Made by a program: the position numbers and the translations under genes
Shown here: positions 135-41,360 of the stretch, in pieces
Layout: each line of letters starts with the position of its first letter
Position numbering within the stretch: the stretch's first letter is position 1
DNA from: Synechococcus sp. UW140
Lineage (GTDB): Bacteria > Cyanobacteriota > Cyanobacteriia > PCC-6307 > Cyanobiaceae
Assembly: GCA_945860085.1 (NCBI GenBank)
Contig: CAMAPJ010000014.1
Location: forward strand, 1-42,400
Length of the DNA: 42,400 bases
Direction of reading: 5' to 3'
The notes under the pieces: model-generated
What the model was told of the DNA's origin: nothing
Databases searched by the model: none
What the model saw: only the letters and a program-made list of their open reading frames with translations

Positions 135-1506
135 TCCCTCCTTGGTGGCCGTCGGGGGCAAGGACCTCGACTCCACCGGCTACGCCTGGTGGGCTGGCAA
201 CGCCCGCCTGATCAACCTCTCTGGCCGCCTGCTCGGCGCCCACGTGGCCCACGCTGGCCTGATGGTTTTCTGGGCCGGCGCCATGATGTTGTTTGAGGTG
301 AGCCACTTCACCTTTGACAAGCCGATGTACGAACAGGGCCTGATCCTGTTCCCCCACGTGGCCACCCTCGGCTACGGCGTCGGTCCCGGCGGTGAAGTCA
401 CCGACCTCTACCCCTTCTTTGTCGTTGGGGTGCTGCACCTGATCAGCTCTGCCGTTCTCGGCTTGGGCGGTCTCTATCACGCCCTGCGTGGTCCTGAGAT
501 TCTGGAAAACTATTCCGCTTTCTTCTCGCAAGATTGGCGTGATAAGAACCAGATGACCAACATCATTGGCTATCACCTGATCCTTCTTGGCGTGGGTGCC
601 TTGCTGCTGGTGTTCAAGGCCATGTTCTTCGGCGGTGTCTATGACACCTGGGCCCCGGGTGGTGGCGATGTGCGCCTGATCACCAACCCCACCCTCAGCC
701 CCGGCGTGGTGTTCGGCTACCTGACCCGCGCCCCCTTCGGCGGTGAGGGCTGGATCATCGGTGTGGACTCCATGGAGGACATCATCGGTGGCCACATTTG
801 GATCGGCCTGATCTGCATCTTCGGTGGCATCTGGCACGTCATCACCAAGCCCTTCGGCTGGGTGCGTCGCGCCTTCATCTGGAACGGTGAGGCTTACCTG
901 AGCTATAGCCTGGGCGCCTTGAGCTTCATGAGCTTCATTGCCTCGGGCTACATCTGGTTCAACAACACCGCCTATCCCTCGGAGTTCTACGGCCCCACCA
1001 ACGCCGAGTCCTCCCAGGCCCAGAGCTTCACCTTCCTGGTGCGTGACCAGCGCATGGGCGCCAACATCGGTTCGGCCATGGGCCCCACGGGCCTGGGCAA
1101 ATACCTGATGCGCTCCCCCACCGGTGAGATCATCTTCGGTGGTGAAACCATGCGCTTCTGGGACTTCCGCGGTCCCTGGCTGGAGCCCCTCCGTGGCCCC
1201 AACGGCCTGAGCCTCGACAAGCTCCAGAACGACATTCAGCCCTGGCAAGTGCGCCGGGCCGCTGAATACATGACCCACGCCCCGAATGCTTCCCTCAATT
1301 CCGTGGGAGGCATCATCACCGAGCCCAACTCGGTGAACTTCGTCAACATCCGTCAGTGGCTCGCTTCCACTCAGTTCGTGTTGGCGTTCTTCTTCTTGGT
1401 CGGTCACCTCTGGCATGCGGGCCGCGCCCGCGCCGCCGCCGCTGGCTTCGAGAAAGGTATCGACCGCAAGGCCGAGCCCACCCTGGCCATGCCTGACCTC
1501 GATTGA
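118..1506 (+). CDS. psbC: Photosystem II CP43 protein; GTG start at 118 overlapping the psbD end
   Basis: Translation [47 protein letters not shown]... is CP43. The ORF-track start at 40 lies inside psbD; GTG at 118 gives the usual psbD/psbC overlap. Confidence 0.95.
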
Positions 1507-1579
1507 GTTCAGCCTTGCCCTCCCTGAGCCAAACCTGCCAAGCCAACCAACGTTGACTAGACGATTTGTTTCAGCCCCA

Positions 1580-1605
1580 GCCCCCGCCTCAGGCGGGGGC
1601 TTTTT
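1580..1605 (+). terminator. Rho-independent terminator downstream of psbC
   Basis: GCCCCCGCC-TCA-GGCGGGGGC followed by TTTTT. Confidence 0.85.
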
Positions 1606-1682
1606 GCTGGCAAGACCTCAGGGCTGAAAAACGAGCACAACAAATCAAGACAGCCGCCAGGTCCTAGGACCTCAAATCAGCC

Positions 1683-2273
1683 TCAAGCGGCCAGCCAACG
1701 GCGCAGCAACGGCAGGCTCAGGCCGATCACATTGCTGAAACAGCCCTCGATGCGTTCCACCACCTGGCCTCCAACGCCCTCGAGCGCAAAGCCGCCGGCA
1801 CAGTGCAAGGGTTCCCCCGTGGCCACATAGGCCTCGATTTCAGCGGAGTTGAGGGCCGCAAACTGCACGCGGGTGGTGACCGTTTCCAGCTGGATGCCAA
1901 CCGGGAGCGACCCGGACCCAGAACCGCCTTGGGGCTCCGGTCGCAGCAGGCAATGGCCCGTGTGCAGCTCGCCCCAGCCACCGGCCATGCACTGCCAGCG
2001 GCGAATCGCCTCCTGGGGATTGGCCGGCTTGCCAAACACTTCGCCAGCTACCACCAGCAAGGAGTCGCAGCCGAGCACGGCCGAAACCTCCCCCGGATCG
2101 CAGTGCGGCAGCACCGCCTCGGCCTTGGCCATGGCCAGCAGCCGAACCAACTCCCTGGGATCGGCAGACGCGATGGCGTCCTCATCGACGCCACTGACCT
2201 TCACCCAATGGGGAATCGCCGCCTGCTCAAGCAAACGGCGACGGGCCGGAGAGGCCGAGGCGAGTAACAACAT
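1683..2273 (-). CDS. maf: Maf-family nucleotide pyrophosphatase
   Basis: [20 protein letters not shown]...[16 protein letters not shown]...[11 protein letters not shown]...GGFALEG are Maf motifs; ATG at 2273 preferred to the longer ORF start. Confidence 0.88.
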
Positions 2274-2387
2274 GGCGCCAGGCGGATCGTCGTTCTCCCC
2301 AGCCTGGAGCAGCAGCCACCGCCAGCACCGCCAGCCCACGATCGGAGCCCCTAGGCCAGAGAATGGCCCTGGTGGCGAGCAGAAGGC

Positions 2388-2792
2388 GTGGGCGACGACG
2401 GCATCGGATCAACGACGCAGAAGGCGATGCGTCGGGCCAGCACGGCCCTGCGCTGTCTGCCCTTTCGCCAGGCTTTTTACCAGCAGCTGGAATCCAGAGC
2501 CCTGAGCAGCAACGACCTCGACCGATCCGAGTCAGGTTCCGGCTCCGGCTCCACCAAGGCCGAGCAACGCTGCTTTAGCCAGGTGGGCCCCTACCAAGCC
2601 GAGGGGCATTTCATTTGGTTGATCCAGCTGGGGGTGTTGCGACGCGAGGTGGATGGCCAGGGCCTGACCGAGCGAGTGCGACTCACTCCCCTGGGCCGGC
2701 AGGTGCTCCTGCAGTGGCCGGGCGAGATCCCTAGGGCCAACTCCGGCGAGCGGCTCTGGGGCTGGCTACAGCGCCACCGGCCCCGGCTTTGA
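2388..2792 (+). CDS. Conserved cyanobacterial hypothetical protein (Npun_F0494-like); start may be 2427
   Basis: [16 protein letters not shown]...[36 protein letters not shown] resembles a small conserved cyanobacterial family; overlaps the cobQ start (TGATG). Confidence 0.65.
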
Positions 2793-4315
2793 TGGCCTCC
2801 GCCAGCCGCTCGCCCAGACCCTTGATGGTGCTTGGCACCTCGAGTGGGGCGGGCAAGTCCTTAATGACCGCTGCCCTCTGCCGAGTGCTGCGTCGCCGCG
2901 GCGAAACGCCCCTGCCCTTCAAGGGCCAGAACATGAGCAACAACGCCTGGGTCGATCAAGGCGGCGGTGAAATGGCCTATTCCCAGGCCCTACAGGCCTG
3001 GGCCGCGGGGCTGGAGCCCACCTGCGCCATGAACCCGGTGTTGCTCAAACCCCAGGGTGACAGCACCAGCGAGGTGATTCACCTAGGCCACTCCGTTGGT
3101 ACGGCCCGGGCCGAGCACTACTACCGCGACTGGTTCAAGCCGGGCTGGGCGGCGATTCGAACCGGCCTGGAGCGCTTGCAGCAGGCCCATCCAGGCGGTC
3201 GCCTGGTCTTGGAGGGGGCCGGCAGCCCGGTAGAAGTCAACCTGCAATCGCGGGACCTCACCAACCTGCGCCTGGCCCAGTACCTGCGGGCCCACTGCCT
3301 GCTGGTGGCCGACATTGAGCGGGGCGGCGTCTTTGCCCAACTGGTAGGGACCCTGGACCTGCTGCGGCCGGTGGAACGGCCCCTGATCCGGGGGCTGCTG
3401 ATCAACCGTTTCCGCGGTCGCCGCGAGCTGTTTGACAACGGCCGCAGCTGGCTGGAAGCACACACGGGTGTGCCCGTGCTTGGGGTGATGCCCTGGCTGG
3501 ATGAACTGTTCCCACCCGAAGATTCCCTCGACCTGCTGGAGCGCCGCGGCCGCAAGGCAGACGCCGAGCTGGAGATCGCCGTGCTGCGCCTACCTTCGCT
3601 CAGCAATTTCTCCGACCTCGATCCCCTCGAGGCCGAGCCGAGCGTGCAAGTGCGCTGGCTCCAGGCCGGCCAGTCCCTAGGCCAGCCCGATGCGGTGATC
3701 GTGCCGGGGAGCAAGCAAACCCTGCGGGATCTGGCGGCCCTGCAGGCCAGCGGCCTAGGGGAGGACTTGCGCCGCTACGCCGGCGGCGGCGGCCAGATCT
3801 TCGGCCTCTGCGGCGGCCTGCAGATGCTGGGCGTCTCCCTGCAGGACCCCGAGGGCCTCGAAGGAGGCGGGGCCGGCCAAGTCCCGGGGTTGGGGTTGCT
3901 GCCCCTGGAGACGGTATTTACACAAGACAAGGCCCTGCACCAGCGGCGCAGCCTGGCCCTCTGGCCGGCGGCTGCGCCGCCTTTAGAGCTCGAGGGCTTT
4001 GAACTGCATCGGGGCCGCAGCCAGCTCCATGGCCCAGGTGCCGAGGCCGCCTGCAAGCCGATTGCCGCCACTGGCGACCTGGGCTGGTGGCGACCATTTG
4101 GCGAGCAGGGCGGCCTGGTGGCCGGCACCTATCTGCATGGGGTGTTTGAAAGTGGTGCCTGGCGCCGCCGCTGGCTCAATGGCCTCAGGCAGCGCAAAGG
4201 ACTCGCTCCCCTAAGTGAACAGGTACCTCACCACAACCAGCAACGGGAAGACCTGCTCGATCGGCTCGCCGATGCCTTCGAGGCCCATGTGAACCTGGAG
4301 CCCCTGCTGCGATGA
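2792..4315 (+). CDS. cobQ: Cobyric acid synthase
   Basis: [43 protein letters not shown]...; C-terminal glutaminase [17 protein letters not shown]. Confidence 0.93.
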
Positions 4316-4569
4316 CGGCCATGGGCTCCCAGGGGGCAGTAACGATCCAGTGGCCAGACGGCCAGCTCAGTTTCGCCCCTGTCGGACAGGACTGGCTGAC
4401 GGCGGCGGCGATCGCAGGCATGGCGATCCCGACCGGCTGCCTGGGGGGCAGCTGCGGAGCTTGTGAAATCGAGGTCAATGGGGAAACCCAGCGAGCTTGT
4501 ATTTCCCAGGTGCCCGCCAGCCTCGACGGCACCCTCAGGGTGGAAATGGGCAGTGATCCCTATTGGTGA
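4312..4569 (+). CDS. 2Fe-2S plant-type ferredoxin-like protein
   Basis: [24 protein letters not shown]: Cx4Cx2C plus a distal Cys; ATGA overlap with cobQ. Confidence 0.85.
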
Positions 4570-4972
4570 GGTCACTCCATCGGGCTTGACCGGCCGGTTC
4601 GGCTGGCGCTGGCAACCCAAGCCTGGCTGCGGGCCCCGAGCCAATCCCCTGGAGTGCGGCAGCCATGCCCACAATGCGCTGCAAGGGCCACCAGCAGCAA
4701 TAGGTAGGCGGATAGGGTTTGCTCGTTAATTATAGCTAGAGGGCCATGAAATCCCGCTTAAAGCATCGCCCTATCAGGCTTGCCTGGTGCGGTAGTTTCA
4801 GAATTCGAGAGCTCCATTTGCCCCGGCTGTGTCCGTACGTTGGGCCCGCTGGCTTGAGGACTTCCAACAGCTATAGCCACCCGTTTGACTTAAACAGCAG
4901 GGCGCCAGTGCGAAGCAGAATAAATGTCTTCCTTTTGCGTGAAGCCCTAAGCACCCTCTGCATGCACCGGAG

Positions 4973-5944
4973 TTGCGAAGCAATCATTTCAAGCCGATGA
5001 CAACCATAATTGCTGTTTGCCTTATTTTATTCAGCTGCATTGCCATCATCGCCCATGATTTTTTTTGGAGATTTCAGCAACGCCTAGACCTCATCCCCAT
5101 GCTTCCCCGCCTCCAGGGCGCCATTGTGCTGACATTTGACGATGGACCCGATTCCCATCTGAAAGCCTGGGGCGACCAATGGGAAGACATTGCCCAGGCC
5201 CGAGAGCTCATTAAAGCGATTGATCCAGGCTGGGATTTTCAAGCCTCAATCACCCAAAACCTAGCAAGAACTCTTCAAGAGTTTGGGGTGAGCGCAATTT
5301 TCTTTGTACAAGGGCAAGTGCTAGCCAAGGACGAGTCCACCCACCCAGTCCTTGATGATTTAGCAAAACGGGGACATACTATCGGCAATCATTTTTTTAG
5401 TCATACCCGCTACCGAGAACAGGCCGCAAAAGTTACTGAGAAAGAAATCAGAGCAACTGACAATCTAATCAAAAAGATCACCGATCGCCAAACCCGTCTC
5501 TACCGCCCTCCCTATGGGCAATGGACGATTCTACGATCCATCCGCCTACGTTTAAATCGCCGCCTTAGCCACTACTTTTTACCCCTCAATTGGACCCACT
5601 GCAGCTTTGACTGGGACAAGCCTATTGCAACGTTGAATCGTTCGAACCTAGAACAGCAGGTCAGCGACATGCTTGATGACATCGAAAAACGGCCTGGACC
5701 CGCAATCATTCTGCAGCACGATATTTGGGCTTACTCCGCCTTATTCACGCGCCTGCTGTTACAGCGCCTGCAACAGAAATCCAAGCTAACGGTAATCAAT
5801 CCGAGCGTTATCCTCCAATCCAACAGCGAAGTGGGACAGGGATTTTGGTGGCTAGGCCTTATCCGTAGCTACCTGCAGCAACGCTATCGATGCATCCTCT
5901 CAAGGGCAACTAGGCAACTTGCATCGCCTCTGCAGGACTACTAA
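4973..5944 (+). CDS. Polysaccharide deacetylase (NodB homology), N-terminal membrane anchor
   Basis: TFDDGPD, GHTIGNHFFSH, YRPPYG and IILQHD motifs; hydrophobic N-terminus. Confidence 0.88.
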   Translation: MRSNHFKPMTTIIAVCLILFSCIAIIAHDFFWRFQQRLDLIPMLPRLQGAIVLTFDDGPDSHLKAWGDQWEDIAQARELIKAIDPGWDFQASITQNLARTLQEFGVSAIFFVQGQVLAKDESTHPVLDDLAKRGHTIGNHFFSHTRYREQAAKVTEKEIRATDNLIKKITDRQTRLYRPPYGQWTILRSIRLRLNRRLSHYFLPLNWTHCSFDWDKPIATLNRSNLEQQVSDMLDDIEKRPGPAIILQHDIWAYSALFTRLLLQRLQQKSKLTVINPSVILQSNSEVGQGFWWLGLIRSYLQQRYRCILSRATRQLASPLQDY

Positions 5945-5954
5945 TCCCCTTCCA

Positions 5955-7040
5955 ATGGACATGGATAACCCTTCGGGCCAGCTGATGGCGGCCGCCCTAG
6001 ACACAGCCACTGGGACCAGATTCCCCCAATTTCATTCAGCAGGCTGCCTGGAGATCCCCAGCTGCAGTGTGATTATCCCGATCTACAATCGCCATGAGTG
6101 GCTTGAAACATGCCTACAAACCATCGCCCGTTCCCATTCAAACCCTAGCCAAATCGAAGTTTTAGTGATCGATGACGGCTCCCTTGATCAACAAAAAGAA
6201 CGAATTTATGCCATCGCGGCCGCCTATCAATGCCACTATCAACGCTTGCCCTTCAATCAAGGTGTTAGCGCGGCGAGAAACGCCGGACTAGCAAGGGCAA
6301 GGGCTTCATGGGTCAAGTTTCTGGATTCAGATGATCAGCTAGTGGCCGGATCCCTGCAGAAAGAAATCTCTATCATGGAAGCGACACACGTGGATTGTCT
6401 CGTTTCCGGGTATCTGGTCAGACAGGAAACCAGAGGCAAACAGAGCCTGCACTTTTACCCGCCAAGGCCATACACCAATACAAACCCATTTGATGCCTTG
6501 CTCAGTGGATTTGGGGCCCCAACTCCGTCGGTTTTATACCGGCGTTCCATCCTCGCAAACGTGCGCTGGAGTCCAACGGTTCGGCATCCGGATGACTGGG
6601 TGTTTATCATCACGGTGCTCAAGCAATTACCCCGGCTGATAACATGGCAGGAACCTACATTCATCTGGTGCAACCATGATGGACCCCGCCAGAGCAATGT
6701 TCCATTGCTGGGGTATTGCCGCTCAAGGCAACTGATCCTTGAAGATATCTGGGCTTTCATTCTCAAGCATGGCGCCGCTACGGATCAACGAGCCCATTGC
6801 CAGTGTGATTGCATTTTCAGGGACATTATCATTGCCTATCGAGAAGATCAGGACTTATACAACAGCATTTTGATACGCATTGAGTCTCTCTATCCTGGCT
6901 TTGTTCCCAGTGCGCGGCAGGCGGGTCTCATCGCAGTTGTGCTGGTAAGGGTCTTCGGCTTACGTCGTTATGTCCCCATCCGTGAACATCTCAAGGCGCT
7001 TGCCTTGGTTCTGATCGCCCCCTTCACTCCCCAAGTTTGA
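5955..7040 (+). CDS. Family 2 glycosyltransferase
   Basis: CSVIIPIYNRHEWLETCLQTI...VLVIDDGSLDQQ...GVSAARNAGLARARASWVKFLDSDD are GT2 motifs. ORF track start is 5919; ATG at 5955 preferred. Confidence 0.87.
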   Translation: MDMDNPSGQLMAAALDTATGTRFPQFHSAGCLEIPSCSVIIPIYNRHEWLETCLQTIARSHSNPSQIEVLVIDDGSLDQQKERIYAIAAAYQCHYQRLPFNQGVSAARNAGLARARASWVKFLDSDDQLVAGSLQKEISIMEATHVDCLVSGYLVRQETRGKQSLHFYPPRPYTNTNPFDALLSGFGAPTPSVLYRRSILANVRWSPTVRHPDDWVFIITVLKQLPRLITWQEPTFIWCNHDGPRQSNVPLLGYCRSRQLILEDIWAFILKHGAATDQRAHCQCDCIFRDIIIAYREDQDLYNSILIRIESLYPGFVPSARQAGLIAVVLVRVFGLRRYVPIREHLKALALVLIAPFTPQV

Positions 7041-8582: not shown

Positions 8583-10331
8583 ATGCCCCAGGAGCTCCCA
8601 CTGCCAGACCCCGTTGCCGCCCGAGCCTGGCCCGCCTGGCCCCAGGCCGATGCCAACCATCTGCTGGTGACCAGCGCCCAAATGGCGGAACTGGAGAACC
8701 AACTGTTCGCCAGTGGCTTGCCCGTGGAGGCCCTGATGGAAAAGGCGGCCCTGGCGATCGCCCGCCGGCTACTCGCCGGGGCACCAGCGTCAGCCCTGGT
8801 GCTGGTGGGGCCCGGCCACAACGGCGGCGACGGCCTTGTGGTGGCGCGAGAGCTGCAGCTGGCCGGGGTGCCCGTGCGCATCTGGACCCCCTTTGAACGC
8901 CACAAACCACTGACGAGCGCCCACCTACGCCACGGCCGCTGGCTGGGGATTCCTTTCCTGGAGGAGGCGCCTGATCCGGGCGAAGGGGTCCTCTGGATCG
9001 ATGCCCTGTACGGCGTCGGCCAGCGGCGCCCGATCGAAGCCAGCCTGGCCACCCTGCTGACGCGGCGACAGCAGTTGCGGCCCGGGGCCCTAGTGGCCAT
9101 CGATGTGCCCACGGGCCTATGCAGTGATAGCGGCAGGTTGCTCGGCAGCGGCGCCGCCCGAGCCCGAACCACCTACTGCCTGGGAGTGCTCAAGCAGGGC
9201 CTAGTCCAGGACGCGGCCCTGGCTTGGGTGGGTCAGCTGGAGCGAATCGACCTGGGCATCACTGACGCCCAGCTGGCCCCCCTGGCCAGTAGGGCACCCC
9301 TGGCCCTGGCGGCCGCCGATGGAGGCACGGCCCCCTGGCCGCCACTGGATCCGGTCGCCGGCAAATATGGGCGCGGCCGCCTGCTCGTGGTGGCCGGCAG
9401 CCCCAGCTATCCAGGCGCCGCCCAGCTCTGCCTGGCGGGGGCCAGCGCCAGCGGCTGCGGCAGCCTCAAGGCCCAGGTTCCCGATGCGGTGGCAGAAGGT
9501 CTCTGGGCCAGCCAGCCCCATGTGGTGCTGGCCCCAGCCGCCTTGGAGCAGGCCGACAGCCTGAAACGCTTCGATGCGGTGGTTTTTGGACCGGGACTGG
9601 GTTCAGAAGCACTCCATCCAGATCCCCAGCAACCCCGCGAACATCCCCAGCTCTGGGACCACTTACAGGGCTTCAAGGGACTGCTACTACTCGATGCCGA
9701 TGGACTCAACCGGCTGGCTGAGCTGACCCGAGCGCCGGGGGCGGGGGCCAGCGCCTGGCTGCGCCAGCGCCGGGGACCGACCTGGTTGACCCCCCATGGC
9801 GCCGAATTCCAACGGCTGTTCCCAGAACTGGCCGGCCGGCCGCCCCTGGAGGCCGCCGCCGCCGCCGCCAAGGCCTCTGGCGCCACCGTGCTGCTTAAGG
9901 GGGCCCATAGCGTCATCGCCACAGCCGATGGACGCCGCTGGCAGCTGGTCGAGACCTGCGCAGCCGCCGCCCGGGCCGGCCTAGGCGACGTGCTGGCGGG
10001 CTACGCCGCAGGCCGCGGAGCCATGGCAATTGCGGCCACCAGAGCAGCAGCGGAGCAGCCTGCGGTGGCAAAGCCTGTTGAGCAAACGGCTCTTGAGACA
10101 AAGACTCTTGAGACAAAGACTTTGGAGGCAACAGCGGGTGCGATGTCCGGGGGTAAGGAGGTCAATGGAGCAGGAACGACAGCCTCGGGCTGCTCCTTGG
10201 ATGGGGCCCTGCTGGCGGCGGTGGCCCTAAACCATGCGCTCGCCGGAGAGCAAGCCTGGTGCGAGCGGGGGCCCGGTGGGGCAACACCAATGGCGGTGGC
10301 GGCGGCACTTGCGAAGCAAAGCTTTAATTAA
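8583..10331 (+). CDS. nnr: Bifunctional NAD(P)H-hydrate epimerase / ADP-dependent dehydratase, with low-complexity insertion
   Basis: N-terminal YjeF epimerase (VGPGHNGGDGLVVARELQLAG); C-terminal carbohydrate kinase-like dehydratase (VFGPGLGS, LLLDADGLN, LTPHGAEF, GLGDVLAGY). Confidence 0.92.
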   Translation: MPQELPLPDPVAARAWPAWPQADANHLLVTSAQMAELENQLFASGLPVEALMEKAALAIARRLLAGAPASALVLVGPGHNGGDGLVVARELQLAGVPVRIWTPFERHKPLTSAHLRHGRWLGIPFLEEAPDPGEGVLWIDALYGVGQRRPIEASLATLLTRRQQLRPGALVAIDVPTGLCSDSGRLLGSGAARARTTYCLGVLKQGLVQDAALAWVGQLERIDLGITDAQLAPLASRAPLALAAADGGTAPWPPLDPVAGKYGRGRLLVVAGSPSYPGAAQLCLAGASASGCGSLKAQVPDAVAEGLWASQPHVVLAPAALEQADSLKRFDAVVFGPGLGSEALHPDPQQPREHPQLWDHLQGFKGLLLLDADGLNRLAELTRAPGAGASAWLRQRRGPTWLTPHGAEFQRLFPELAGRPPLEAAAAAAKASGATVLLKGAHSVIATADGRRWQLVETCAAAARAGLGDVLAGYAAGRGAMAIAATRAAAEQPAVAKPVEQTALETKTLETKTLEATAGAMSGGKEVNGAGTTASGCSLDGALLAAVALNHALAGEQAWCERGPGGATPMAVAAALAKQSFN

Positions 10332-10477
10332 TCAGCTGAAATCCGTGGCCTATCCGATGCATCAATGCCGCACACAAATCCCGTGTCAACAGATGGCGCA
10401 AAGCTGAAAAGTTCATGAAGACACAGACAAATTCCGCTTTTCTGTAGGAGGTTGGCCTAACTTCAAGCCCCTGCTTC

Positions 10478-11413
10478 ATGACAGCCTCTGGCCCGCCGGA
10501 CAGGGGCGGCCCCCGCCGCCGCACCAGTGATCCGATCAGCTGGTATCTCGGCACCATTGGGCGTGTGCCTTTGCTGACACCAGCCGAGGAAATTGAACTG
10601 GGCAATCAGGTCCAAACCATGATGCGCCTGCTGGAGGAGCCCAAGGAAGGGGGTTACAGCGACAAGGAAAATAAAATTATTCGGGTGGGTCGCCGCTGTA
10701 AAGAGCGGATGATGAAAGCCAATCTTCGGCTGGTCGTCAGCGTCGCCAAGAAATATCAGGGCAAGGGCATGGAACTGCTCGACCTGATTCAAGAGGGCTC
10801 CCTCGGACTCGAGCGGGCCGTTGAAAAATTCGATCCGACCCGGGGCTATAAATTTTCGACCTACGCCTTTTGGTGGATCCGTCAGAGCATGACCCGGGCC
10901 ATTGCCTGTCAGTCGCGCACCATCCGCCTGCCGGTCCATCTCTCGGAACGGCTCTCGGCAATTCGCAAAGTGAGCCTGGATCTGGCCCACAAACTCGGGG
11001 CAATGCCGAGTCGCCAGGAGATTTCCGAGGCGATGGACATACCGATCGAGGAGCTCGATTCGCTGCTGCGCCAGTCCCTTACCACCTCCAGCCTCGATGC
11101 GCCGGTCAACGGTGATGATGACCGCAGCTTCCTCGGAGAACTCATCGCTGACACCAGCCACAGCGAACCCCTGGAAACGGTCGAACGCGGCATCCACCTC
11201 GAGCAACTCGGCCATTGGCTCGGCCAGCTCTCGGAGCAGGAGCGCCAGGTGCTGGAAATGCGCTTTGGGCTCGAGGGTCACGATCGCCACACCCTGGCCG
11301 AGATTGGCCGGCTGCTCGATGTCTCTCGGGAGCGGGTGCGCCAGGTGGAACTCAAGGCCCTGCGCAAGCTGCGCCACTTCACCCGCCGCACCCCCGCCCT
11401 TCAGGGTCCCTGA
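10478..11413 (+). CDS. RNA polymerase sigma factor, sigma-70 family, probable group 2
   Basis: RTSDPISWYLGTIGRVPLLTPAEEIELGNQV...LRLVVSVAKKYQGKGMELLDLIQEGSLGLERAVEKFDPTRGYKFSTYAFWWIRQSMTRAI...; lacks a long region 1.1. Confidence 0.93.
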   Translation: MTASGPPDRGGPRRRTSDPISWYLGTIGRVPLLTPAEEIELGNQVQTMMRLLEEPKEGGYSDKENKIIRVGRRCKERMMKANLRLVVSVAKKYQGKGMELLDLIQEGSLGLERAVEKFDPTRGYKFSTYAFWWIRQSMTRAIACQSRTIRLPVHLSERLSAIRKVSLDLAHKLGAMPSRQEISEAMDIPIEELDSLLRQSLTTSSLDAPVNGDDDRSFLGELIADTSHSEPLETVERGIHLEQLGHWLGQLSEQERQVLEMRFGLEGHDRHTLAEIGRLLDVSRERVRQVELKALRKLRHFTRRTPALQGP

Positions 11414-34977: not shown

Positions 34978-36324
34978 ATGTTTCAGTCGCAAACAATCCT
35001 TGAAGAGCTCCTAACAAGACGTCACAGGAGTTTTCTTTCTCAGCAAATAATTTTCTCCTATCAAATACTAATTGACATCCTCTACAAAGTCTGGGGGAGC
35101 AATACGGAGGATTACGGAAGAGCCATTCAGATTGCCACTGGCAGGCGGGGAGATTTAGGGCGCTCAGCCCAACTCTTTGAGGGCATCTTTATCGATGAAC
35201 CGATCGAGATAGAAAAACTGGAAGAATCGCTCAAGTCAGTCAAAATCGTTGAGTGTATTCCTGGCGACCAAAAGCGACCAAGCCCAAACTTTGGCCGCTC
35301 CAATTCACTCATTTCAAGCATCAATTTCTTTGCGGAAAAAAAAGATGAGCAATTCATCCTCGAACGCATTGGCATTTCCAAACAAAAGCTGTTGGGCATT
35401 GCTCGCTGCATGTGGGAAATCCGAGCCTGCGCCTTCTTCCTGCGCACGGCCAGAAACGACGACGAACATCTTGACATTCAAGATTTCTCGGTAGCGACAG
35501 CAATTGCAGCCACAGGTTGCGCCGTACGCGTCTCTGACTGCATGCAAACAATTGCATGGTCGTTGCAAGGGTACTCGCCAAGTTTCAACGCGATGCTTGC
35601 CATTCCCAATGACGACTGTTCCCAGTCTCTCAATGCAATCATGAACCAGATGTTCAGCATTGAGACCGCTACTGACGACGTGGGCACCCCTCCCAAGCCC
35701 CCTACTGATCAGGCAGCCTCAATGGCAACTCTCAGTAGCATGATGACAGGCAATCATGGAGAGCCTTCAGATGTATTGCCAGTATTACTAGAATTGCTGC
35801 GCGGAATCAATGAGAATAAGCGGCAATTTTTCTCCGTAACCCAATCACTCGAACGCATTGAAGGACAAGGTGCGCGCATCGAGAATTGCTTCATCCGCCA
35901 AGCGGCACCCGATGGCAACAGCAACAGTCTCACAAATGCAATAACGACTTCAGCCTTATTGGCAACTGATGCCAGCTCGTTAAAAACAATCCCAGATCGA
36001 CTGAGCAAACGCGAAGCCGAACAAGCTCTTCTCGAATTGAGAAGTTATATTCTTTTCAAAATGAGAATTAGCTATCCGGACTTCGAACCCTATCACTGCA
36101 TTACTCAACGCACCGCTATTCTGCAGGCCCTGCATGCAAGATCGTCCTCCATTGAAGAATATATCAGCGTGCCAGTGATAAAACGCATCATCGCCATGAA
36201 CGACAATGGCGGCGAACTGGTTGATCAGCAACTTGAGGATTGGGGTGATCGAATTTCCAGCATTCTTTCAGCAATTGACTATGCAAAAGCCAATGACGAA
36301 TACGATGTTAACGAGACAAGCTGA
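34978..36324 (+). CDS. Hypothetical 448-aa protein, orphan; possible HEPN-like domain
   Basis: Long ORF in locally AT-richer DNA; contains RTARNDDEHLD (R-x4-H) in a helical context. No family recognised with confidence. Confidence 0.8.
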   Translation: MFQSQTILEELLTRRHRSFLSQQIIFSYQILIDILYKVWGSNTEDYGRAIQIATGRRGDLGRSAQLFEGIFIDEPIEIEKLEESLKSVKIVECIPGDQKRPSPNFGRSNSLISSINFFAEKKDEQFILERIGISKQKLLGIARCMWEIRACAFFLRTARNDDEHLDIQDFSVATAIAATGCAVRVSDCMQTIAWSLQGYSPSFNAMLAIPNDDCSQSLNAIMNQMFSIETATDDVGTPPKPPTDQAASMATLSSMMTGNHGEPSDVLPVLLELLRGINENKRQFFSVTQSLERIEGQGARIENCFIRQAAPDGNSNSLTNAITTSALLATDASSLKTIPDRLSKREAEQALLELRSYILFKMRISYPDFEPYHCITQRTAILQALHARSSSIEEYISVPVIKRIIAMNDNGGELVDQQLEDWGDRISSILSAIDYAKANDEYDVNETS

Positions 36325-36554: not shown

Positions 36555-36821
36555 ATGTTAAGCCGGCTGAGCTCCGTACTGGGACGCGGTCAGCGTCACG
36601 CCCGCACCTATCGCCTAATCGATGGCTTTTGGCGGCCCCATCCCGAACTGGATGGCTCCTATGCGTCCCTAGAAGAGGCGATACAGGACGCCGTTGTCTG
36701 GCTGGAGGGCCTAGGGGCTGGTGCGAGCAGCTGCTCGATCGGCCTGGAGGTCAGCACCCCAAGCGGCGACTGGCGCACGATTCGCCAACCGGATCTGTTG
36801 CTTTGTCCGCTTCCCTGGTGA
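36555..36821 (+). CDS. Conserved small cyanobacterial protein (88 aa)
   Basis: HARTYRLIDGFWRPHPELDGSYASLEEAIQDAVVWLEGLGAGASSCSIGLEVSTPSGDWRTIRQPDLLLCPLPW; compact protein-like sequence resembling a short picocyanobacterial hypothetical. Confidence 0.65.
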   Translation: MLSRLSSVLGRGQRHARTYRLIDGFWRPHPELDGSYASLEEAIQDAVVWLEGLGAGASSCSIGLEVSTPSGDWRTIRQPDLLLCPLPW

Positions 36822-38220: not shown

Positions 38221-38991
38221 TCAGGTGAGCTCAAACAGCAGCAAGTCAGCTCCCTCAAGAGTGGCCGTCAGGCCGCTGAGCTGGCCGGCCGAAAAACCCA
38301 GGCCGTCGCCCTGAACCAGGCAGCCGAGGGAGCCGAAGGCGCCCGTCGCCCCAGGGTCAACCCTCACCAGGAGGCCGCCAGCAATCACCTGGATCCAGCC
38401 CGAGGTTGCTGGTGCCAGCGGCAGATCAAGGCTGCCACCGGACCCAGGACAAGCGCGCCAAAGACGGATCGGCCGCTGGATCGCCATGGCCCCACCTAGA
38501 CGTTTGGGGTCAATTAGGGCCGTCCACCCCTCGCCAAGGGGAAAGGCCTGCTGGTCATAGCTGGGGGGGATACCCTGGCTGCTGGGTTCAATCCAGATCT
38601 GCAACAGACGGCAGGGAGCCTGGCCGCCATTGATCTCACTGTGGACAATGCCGGTGCCAGCACTCATCCGTTGCACTTCACCAGCGCGCAGGGTGGCGCG
38701 GTGGCCCATTGAATCCTGGTGATTCAATTCACCCTCCACCATCACAGTGATGATCTCCATGTCCCGGTGGGGATGCATGCCAAACCCCTGGCCGGCCCCA
38801 ATCCGGTCATCATTGATCACCAACAGCGGCCCAAAACCACGCCATTGGGGATCAAAGTGGCCGGCAAAACTGAAACTATGCCAACTATCGAGCCAGCCTG
38901 ACTGGCTATGAAAACGCTCAGCGTCTGGCCGATACACTAGGCCCGGCAAGGAAAACTGATCAACAGCAGGATCAAGCTGGAAATCTTTCAT
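38221..38991 (-). CDS. Pirin family protein
   Basis: GWLDSWHSFSFAGHFDPQWRGFGPLLVINDDRIGAGQGFGMHPHRDMEIITVMVEGELNHQDSMGHRATLRAGEVQRMSAGTGIVHSEIN. The ORF-track N-terminal extension is arsJ 3' sequence. Confidence 0.9.
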   Translation of the reverse strand: MKDFQLDPAVDQFSLPGLVYRPDAERFHSQSGWLDSWHSFSFAGHFDPQWRGFGPLLVINDDRIGAGQGFGMHPHRDMEIITVMVEGELNHQDSMGHRATLRAGEVQRMSAGTGIVHSEINGGQAPCRLLQIWIEPSSQGIPPSYDQQAFPLGEGWTALIDPKRLGGAMAIQRPIRLWRACPGSGGSLDLPLAPATSGWIQVIAGGLLVRVDPGATGAFGSLGCLVQGDGLGFSAGQLSGLTATLEGADLLLFELT

Positions 38992-39049
38992 CAGCGCAGC
39001 AAGACCCGATCGGGCGACGCCTTCAGCATGGATCAGGCTCGCAGTCCTG

Positions 39050-40332
39050 GCAAGCCGATCGCCCTGGCCTCCAGGCAAGGGCGGCAAACGCAGACTGCTG
39101 AGCCGAGACAAGCCCACCAGCAGGGCCGAAACAGCAAGGCAGGCCTGCATGCCGCCATGGAGAAACACCCAACCGGAGAGCAAGGTTCCAAGCAGGCGGC
39201 CGCCAGCATTGGCCATGTAATAAAAACCGACGTTGAGGCCCACTGAGTCGGCATCAGTATAGGCGAGGATCAAATAGCTATGAATCGATGAATTCATCGC
39301 AAACACCATGGCAAAGACAGCCAATCAAGCCACGATGACCAGGCCGGGATGGACCAGCTGACGCGCTAAAGCAACCGCCAGCAGGGCCGGGATAGCGGTG
39401 AGCAAGGCGCTCCAGAACTGCACAGCAGAAGGGCCTGGTGGGCCACCCCGCCCCCAGCAGCGGCGGAAGGTCGGGGCGCAAGGTGGGGGCGCAAGCTTGC
39501 ACGAAACCGTAGCCAATCACCCAAAGGCCCATAAAGCCGCCCACCTCCGAGAATCGCCAACCCAAGGTGGCCTCCAAAAAAACTGGCAAGGCAACCACAA
39601 ACCAGACATCGCGAGCGCCGAACAAAAAGAAACGTGCCACAGAAAAGCGATGGACCGCTTCGCTCTTACAAAACAAATCGCTGAAGGCTGGTTTTTGCCC
39701 CATCTTGCCGATGTCGCCTGGCAAGAAGAGAGTGGCCAGCAGGGCCGCCAGAATGGCCACTGATCCCCCAAACCTAACGGTGGCTAGCAACAAGCCACCT
39801 GCAAAAAACCCACATCCTTCAAGGCATTCTTAGAGCCAGTCAAGACGGCGACCCATTGGAAAAGCTGGTGCTCGCCGTCGGCATCCTGCCCGCTAGGGAA
39901 AGGGGCGTGGGGAGAGGCCACCACGGTTTTAATTGCACTTTTGGCGCTCATCTTGCTGAGATCCTTGGCGATGCCACTGATCGCCTATACCACCATCACA
40001 TAGATCACCGAAACAAATTTGGGCCAACTGGCAGACACGGGAATCAGCGAAAGCAGGGCAAAAATCTGTTGGGCTCAGCCAGCCCATAGTGTGAAGCGCA
40101 GACCAAAACGGGCTCCAAGCCAGCCCCAGCAAAGGTTAGTGAGGATGCCGAAGACCTCATAAAATAGAAAAAGGCCGGCAATATCCAAGGTGGAATAGCC
40201 CAGCTGGTGAAAATGGAACAACACCAACATGCGCAGGGCCCCATCGCTGAGGGTGAAGGTCCAGTAGGCCTCTGTAACAACCCCGTACTGCTGCAGGGCA
40301 GACAGGCTGCCACTGCCATTCAGGCGTGTCAT
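39050..40332 (-). pseudogene. arsJ: ArsJ-like organoarsenical efflux MFS permease, disrupted by multiple lesions
   Basis: YGVVTEAYWTFTLSDGALRMLVLFHFHQLGYSTLDIAGLFLFYEVFGILTNLCWGWLGARFGL; AISGIAKDLSKMSAKSAIK; QWVAVLTGSKNALKDVGF; RFFLFGARDVWFVVALPVFLEATLGW; SSIHSYLILAYTDADSVGLNVGFYYMANAGGRLLGTLLSGW. Segments lie in successive frames; ATGA overlap with GAPDH stop. 3' limit approximate. Confidence 0.85.
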
Positions 40333-41360
40333 GGCTGCTCCAGGGCGACCACATGCCAAACCAGTTCGGCCAGGCGGCAGCTGTAACCCCACTCGTTGTC
40401 ATACCAGGCGTAGAGCTTAAGCTGGGTACCATTCACCTCCAGGGTGGAGAGCGCATCAACAATGGCGCTGCGCGAATCATTAATGAAATCAACAGACACT
40501 AAAGGACGGGTCTCATAGCCAAGAATGCCGCTCAACTCACCTAGTGAGGCCCGCTCAAAAGCGCCATTCACTTCCGCCACATCGACGCTGCACTCAAGCT
40601 CAAAAACCGCATCGGTGAGGGAGGCATTGAGCAAGGGCACCCGCACGGCATGGCCATTGAGCTTGCCCTGGAGTTCTGGAAAAATAAGACCAATTGCCTT
40701 GGCCGACCCCGTGGTCGTAGGGATCAGACTCTGGGATGCGGAGCGGCAACGGCGCAAATCGCTGTTAAAAGAATCAACCAGCACCTGGGTGTTAGTGACA
40801 TCGTGGAGGGTGGTGATCGATCCATGGCGAATGCCAAAGGCTTCGTGCACCACCTTCACCAGCGGAGCCAGGCAATTGGTGGTGCAGGAGGCCGCTGTGA
40901 CTAGGCGATGCCGGCTGGGGTCATAGAGCTGATGGTTGATACCAAAGACCAGGTTGAGTGCCTCAGCGCCGGCAATCTCACCCTTGACCGGACAGGCCAC
41001 AATGACCCGTTTGAGGCCAACCTGGCCGAAATAAGGCTGGAGGGCTGACGGGGTTTTGAACTTGCCGCTGCATTCGAGCACCATCTCCACGCCGGCCTGC
41101 GTCCAGGGAACGTCGACCGGCTCAGACTCCTGGCTGTAGCCGAGGGAGTGGGATCCAACCACCAAGGTTTTGCCATGGCCATGACAATCCTGGTCCCAAC
41201 GGCCATGGACCGAATCGAACTGCAGCAGGTGGGCGGCCGTGGCCGCGTCGCCGCCACTGTCATTGATCTGAACGATGGTGAGACCCGGCCGGCCCCAAAG
41301 GGCGCGCAAGACTAGGCGGCCGATGCGGCAAAAACCATTGATGCCGATCTTTATCACCAC
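40329..41360 (-). CDS. ArsJ-associated glyceraldehyde-3-phosphate dehydrogenase
   Basis: [20 protein letters not shown]...[12 protein letters not shown]...[22 protein letters not shown]...[19 protein letters not shown]; located between arsR and arsJ. Confidence 0.9.

Follow-up and report, generated by a model that had tools for sequence, protein, structure and literature searches.

HEPN domains have Rx4-6H as their main conserved feature, with the residue next to the arginine mostly N, D, or H, and certain known HEPN domains are inactive (PMC3710099). Two HEPN families resemble the gene described here: the MAE_28990-like family (PF18737), with which it shares R-x4-H followed by a polar N, D, or H, a helical domain, and a defense setting, and the Swt1-like family (PF18731), with which it shares an RN-x3-H motif. 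A third point of comparison is class 1 DISARM (drmD-drmMI-drmA-drmB-drmC), an operon of which one branch of the gene's relatives (subfamily B) is a fixed neighbor. DrmC is dispensable and does not copurify with DrmAB (PMC9142583), and the question touched here is how DISARM finishes phage once DrmAB loads. The open-access papers searched do not name the R-x4-H gene as a DISARM component, and no mention of a DISARM accessory role for its family was found in them. The best joint explanation of the whole, to which a probability of about 0.5 is given, is that the protein combines a HEPN-type RNase domain with an HRDC-like domain and would act as a DISARM accessory effector in subfamily B and as a stand-alone RNase or RNA regulator in subfamily A.

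The window, i.e., the whole stretch of 42,400 nucleotides that was analyzed, carries the gene on its forward strand as a single ORF with an ATG start and 448 codons (Table 1). Its GC content is 0.476 versus 0.638 for the window, and its GC3 is 0.507 versus 0.832 in the neighboring nadK. No match was found for the protein in Pfam, NCBIfam, PADLOC, PHROGs, or PDB, even at E values of up to 10. A sequence-only reading had described one long AT-richer ORF, belonging to no recognized family and with RNDDEH at residues 159 to 164, and all three descriptions hold; the confident match to an unrelated family that it had named as speaking against its proposal did not appear in any of the four profile libraries or PDB.

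Table 1. Coordinates of the gene and of its domains and motifs in the window
Feature	Coordinates	Strand	Evidence
Complete gene, encoding a 448-aa member of subfamily A of the R-x4-H family	34978..36324	+	ORF call, homologues
HEPN-like candidate domain at the N terminus (residues 1-223), predicted all-helical; 92-95% identity across the genus	34978..35646	+	dN/dS; AF2 model, pLDDT 50, pTM 0.52
E147-I-R149; E147 kept without exception in both alignments, R149 throughout subfamilies A-C	35416..35424	+	Alignments
R159-N-D-D-E-H164, R-x4-H motif at C-terminal end of predicted helix 135-162	35452..35469	+	Alignments, low-confidence model
Variable linker, residues 226-343; predicted helices 263-280 and 287-309, possibly coiled coil	35653..36006	+	Identity 49-56% across the genus; low-confidence model
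HRDC-like domain at the C terminus (residues 344-438), shared more widely in the family than any other part (FxxYHCI...R..I.QAL)	36007..36291	+	Homologue matches, hhalign

The ORF founds an undescribed family of four subfamilies that are approximately 20% identical: A, which includes the window protein, B, C, and D. The family is seen almost only in picocyanobacteria, the same family as the source genome, where a profile search found members in 24 of 400 genomes; a sample of the phylum added one weak match (L062), to an apparently unrelated protein. Phage and plasmid searches returned no family members, and neither did searches of viral contigs with the window protein and subfamilies B and D. 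A single member, of subfamily C, was found on an IMG/VR contig (L180), where it is preceded by two DUF488-like genes and a gene that matches the PADLOC candidate PDC-M72B (1103 to 4802).

With 28 arginines and 5 histidines per 448 residues, approximately 0.31 R-x4-H motifs are expected by chance from composition, and the motif within one sequence alone is therefore no evidence. What goes beyond chance is that each of the 20 full or near-full members has it in register, although between subfamilies they are otherwise only approximately 20% identical; lack of this conservation would have counted against the sequence-only reading. The motif takes the forms RNDDEH (A), RHHA[SA]H (B), RDSxxH (C), and RNR[TK]SH (D), so that the residue directly after R is N, H, D, and N, respectively, in agreement with the rule for HEPN domains (PMC3710099). 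A 13-row alignment that covers the four subfamilies has invariant columns at E147, L155, R159, H164, F170, and a few positions of the C-terminal domain; in the N-terminal domain, very few columns besides R159 and H164 are invariant. Profile-profile alignment of N-terminal domains, which is independent of the multiple alignment, also places the motif in register between A and C (P = 8e-4) and between B and C (P = 4e-4) and weakly so between B and D and between C and D; the A-B and A-D profiles did not align directly. The spacing of the acidic residue is unlike that of MAE_28990-like HEPN domains: E147, found 12 residues before R159, is followed by xR, outside the Ex3[KR] pattern typical of the conserved acidic residue in HEPN domains, and its placement in subfamily D needs a one-residue gap.

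The linker is the fast-evolving middle part of the protein. The C-terminal domain matches subfamilies B and C at E values of 1e-8 to 2e-3. By hhalign, its alignment with HRDC (PF00570) spans 59 columns (P = 0.002 to 0.004), a result equaled by 1 of 150 column shuffles; hmmscan found no direct match of HRDC to the window protein, and the FxxYHCI stretch and the C-terminal helix are unlike HRDC. This weak resemblance is suggestive of a nucleic-acid-binding domain and of nothing more specific. A non-catalytic adaptor or regulator that binds nucleic acid through the HRDC-like domain, with R and H being structural or contacting RNA or DNA phosphate, would fit this domain, the existence of inactive HEPN domains (PMC3710099), and the housekeeping-like constraint and absence of adjoining drm genes in the window's genus, but is considered rather unlikely given that exactly R and H are kept, with N, H, or D after R, across four such divergent subfamilies, as is expected of a catalytic site without being proof of one.

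Comparisons of the N-terminal domain with HEPN profiles are borderline. One subfamily D member matches HEPN_MAE_28990 with an E value of 0.014 over residues 24 to 201 (178 residues, motif included), which is below the curated cutoff, and subfamily D scores above all 60 column-shuffled decoys against this profile. Subfamilies A, B, and C taken singly do not convincingly beat shuffles in hhalign comparisons with HEPN families and gave no significant match to the Swt1, RiboL-PSP, or MAE_28990 HEPN profiles (hhalign P of 0.05 or worse); for the window protein itself, no HEPN profile reaches significance. Pooling the N-terminal domains gave a slightly better result: against three HEPN families, between 0 and 2 of 60 shuffles scored equally well, and the motif itself formed the best local match to MAE_28990. 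These tests were built on small families assembled in this analysis, and hhalign is a weak test here, as the known HEPN pair MAE_28990-Swt1 reached only a P value of 0.049 in it. Assignment to the Swt1 type, which the sequence-only reading had named for comparison, was rejected: PF18731 gave no Pfam match at E values of up to 10 and none in genome G000, its hhalign comparison was not significant, and no fused AAA or PIN domain was seen.

Structure prediction gave low-confidence models, with a pLDDT of 36 for the full protein and the values in Table 1 for the N-terminal domain, which is predicted to consist entirely of helices, with R159 near the end of the helix that spans residues 135 to 162 and H164 just beyond. 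Foldseek searches with both models, which are too weak for this purpose, returned no HEPN domain and nothing usable. On these low-confidence models, the structural check that had been proposed from the sequence placed the motif at a predicted helix end and yielded no HEPN match. A different helical fold, unrelated to HEPN, with a coincidental R-x4-H and some other service to DISARM or the cell, is compatible with these searches and with the lack of significant profile matches for A, B, and C; the subfamily D match to HEPN_MAE_28990, the N, H, or D after R, and the position of the motif argue against such a fold, which is regarded as improbable. The earlier proposal of a HEPN-like N-terminal domain stands insofar as R159 and H164 are invariant, the following residue is of the right type, and the motif ends a long helix of an all-helical prediction. 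HEPN homology is not proven by profile or fold searches, because the models are poor and the profile matches borderline, and the domain is termed HEPN-like.

Neighborhoods of the relatives link the family to DISARM. Subfamily B lies tail to tail with drmC wherever its position is visible. In L049, L050, L051, L056, and L058, the two genes are within about 40 bases of each other, with a slight overlap in L051, and are followed by drmB and drmA; DrmA, DrmB, and DrmC were confirmed by PADLOC profiles in L049 and L051. The island in genome G216 has DrmD (SNF2 helicase) and DrmMI (methylase) upstream, which makes it class 1 DISARM. In a DrmB tree of 26 loci, all nine rows linked to an R-x4-H gene fall inside one clade of ten, and the contig of the tenth (G111) ends where the gene would lie. 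Adjacency of subfamily B to drmC is a trait of this one DrmB clade, and the clustering of homologue neighborhoods that had been proposed at the outset found it in every readable locus. The R-x4-H gene is convergent to drmC, which makes it a separate unit.

Other subfamilies also occur near DISARM genes. A subfamily D member in G264 lies beside drmD, about 14 kb from drmABC with DrmMI, and a subfamily C member in L052 lies near a 5'-truncated drmC. G242 and G217 have truncated relics of subfamily B at a distance from DISARM, and in G343 a broken relic adjoins a drmA piece. Since relatives adjoin DISARM genes, the defense link is real for the family; the defense setting suggested earlier holds in this sense. 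Subfamilies C and D also take part in a recurrent cluster (L052, 7233 to 11771; L053, 6700 to 10104; L055, 7353 to 13296) with a Cas4-like nuclease, an AAA_33 and WYL-like protein, and unknowns of 228 and 170 aa, which is possibly another set of DISARM-associated genes. The class 1 island of G216 contains a HepT-like short protein and a GmrSD_N-like protein (L171, 10430 to 12517); in the window's genome, too, a GmrSD_N protein is encoded ahead of drmA (L168, 2657 to 4405).

In the window's genus, subfamily A was present in all six sampled genomes, the other five proteins being 78 to 81% identical to that of the window. In L002 and L005 the site is shared, with surE, pheS, nadK, a gene for a response regulator, and one for a methyltransferase beside it, and the GC content of the gene is equally low. 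Within the genus, the N-terminal domain has a dN of 0.026 to 0.048, a dS of 1.5 to 2.1, and an omega of about 0.02, and the full-length omega is 0.04 to 0.08; for comparison, nadK and pheS have a dN of 0.007 to 0.021 and a dS of 0.3 to 0.55. Purifying selection on the gene is strong, although saturation is nearly reached at its synonymous sites, and subfamily A is a fixed, syntenic, resident stand-alone gene of the genus. The earlier remark that the gene sits alone is right for the window. The window contains no drmB, and DrmB was found in the source genome only on contigs C42 and C114 and in two of the six genomes of the genus, which are partly incomplete; the window member is therefore not itself linked to DISARM.

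Recently acquired mobile defense or toxin cargo, as the sequence-only reading had proposed from the setting of the gene, would fit the low GC and GC3 and the relatives inside DISARM islands, but is very improbable given the presence in six of six genomes, synteny wherever flanks are readable, the equally low GC at L002 and L005, and the N-terminal omega. Genus-wide presence at the same site rejects recent mobility within the genus, a result that does not extend to the time before the genus arose. A small conserved ORF of no assigned family lies just downstream (about 36564 to 36812, forward strand) and is 77% identical to its counterpart in L002 (6373 to 6762). As an antitoxin candidate it was rejected, being conserved in L002 and L003 and broken in L005.

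The best reading of the protein remains a HEPN-like domain that would cut or bind RNA and an HRDC-like domain, with a helical linker between the two; this fusion is another difference from MAE_28990-like HEPN proteins, as is a match that is subthreshold in subfamily D and absent for the window member. The invariant R-x4-H probably marks a HEPN-type, metal-independent RNase active site that would form where one helix ends and probably be completed through dimerization, and the C-terminal domain probably binds nucleic acid, as its weak similarity to HRDC suggests. We infer RNase activity, HRDC function, and the effector role. By position, subfamily B most likely is a class 1 DISARM accessory effector, which would cut or bind RNA when DISARM engages or fails against phage DNA. 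The resident gene of the window's genus, being stand-alone and strongly constrained, most likely acts without the DISARM core, as an RNase or RNA regulator triggered by stress or infection.

A likely RNase motif in a gene that is a fixed neighbor of drmC in one DISARM clade makes this gene a direct candidate for a missing effector arm. The full statement, put forward tentatively, is that it encodes an undescribed class 1 DISARM accessory effector, in which an R-x4-H (HEPN-type) RNase carries a fused HRDC-like domain; this effector would give DISARM, a system regarded as acting on phage DNA, an RNA-targeting or abortive arm and would be kept as a stand-alone, strongly constrained gene in one freshwater Synechococcus genus. 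The family would also exemplify defense-linked genes with a stand-alone, genus-wide branch.

Elsewhere in the window, an ArsJ-like transporter frame is broken (38221 to 40392, reverse strand), its C-terminal end running into a pirin-like ORF, which may reflect either genuine decay or a fault in the assembly; L002 has an intact 443-aa copy (9199 to 10530). A second AT-richer patch (4973 to 7040; GC of about 0.51) contains a polysaccharide-deacetylase-like ORF and a glycosyltransferase-like ORF. The IsrR antisense RNA is encoded at 535 to 721 on the reverse strand, with a strong Rfam match.
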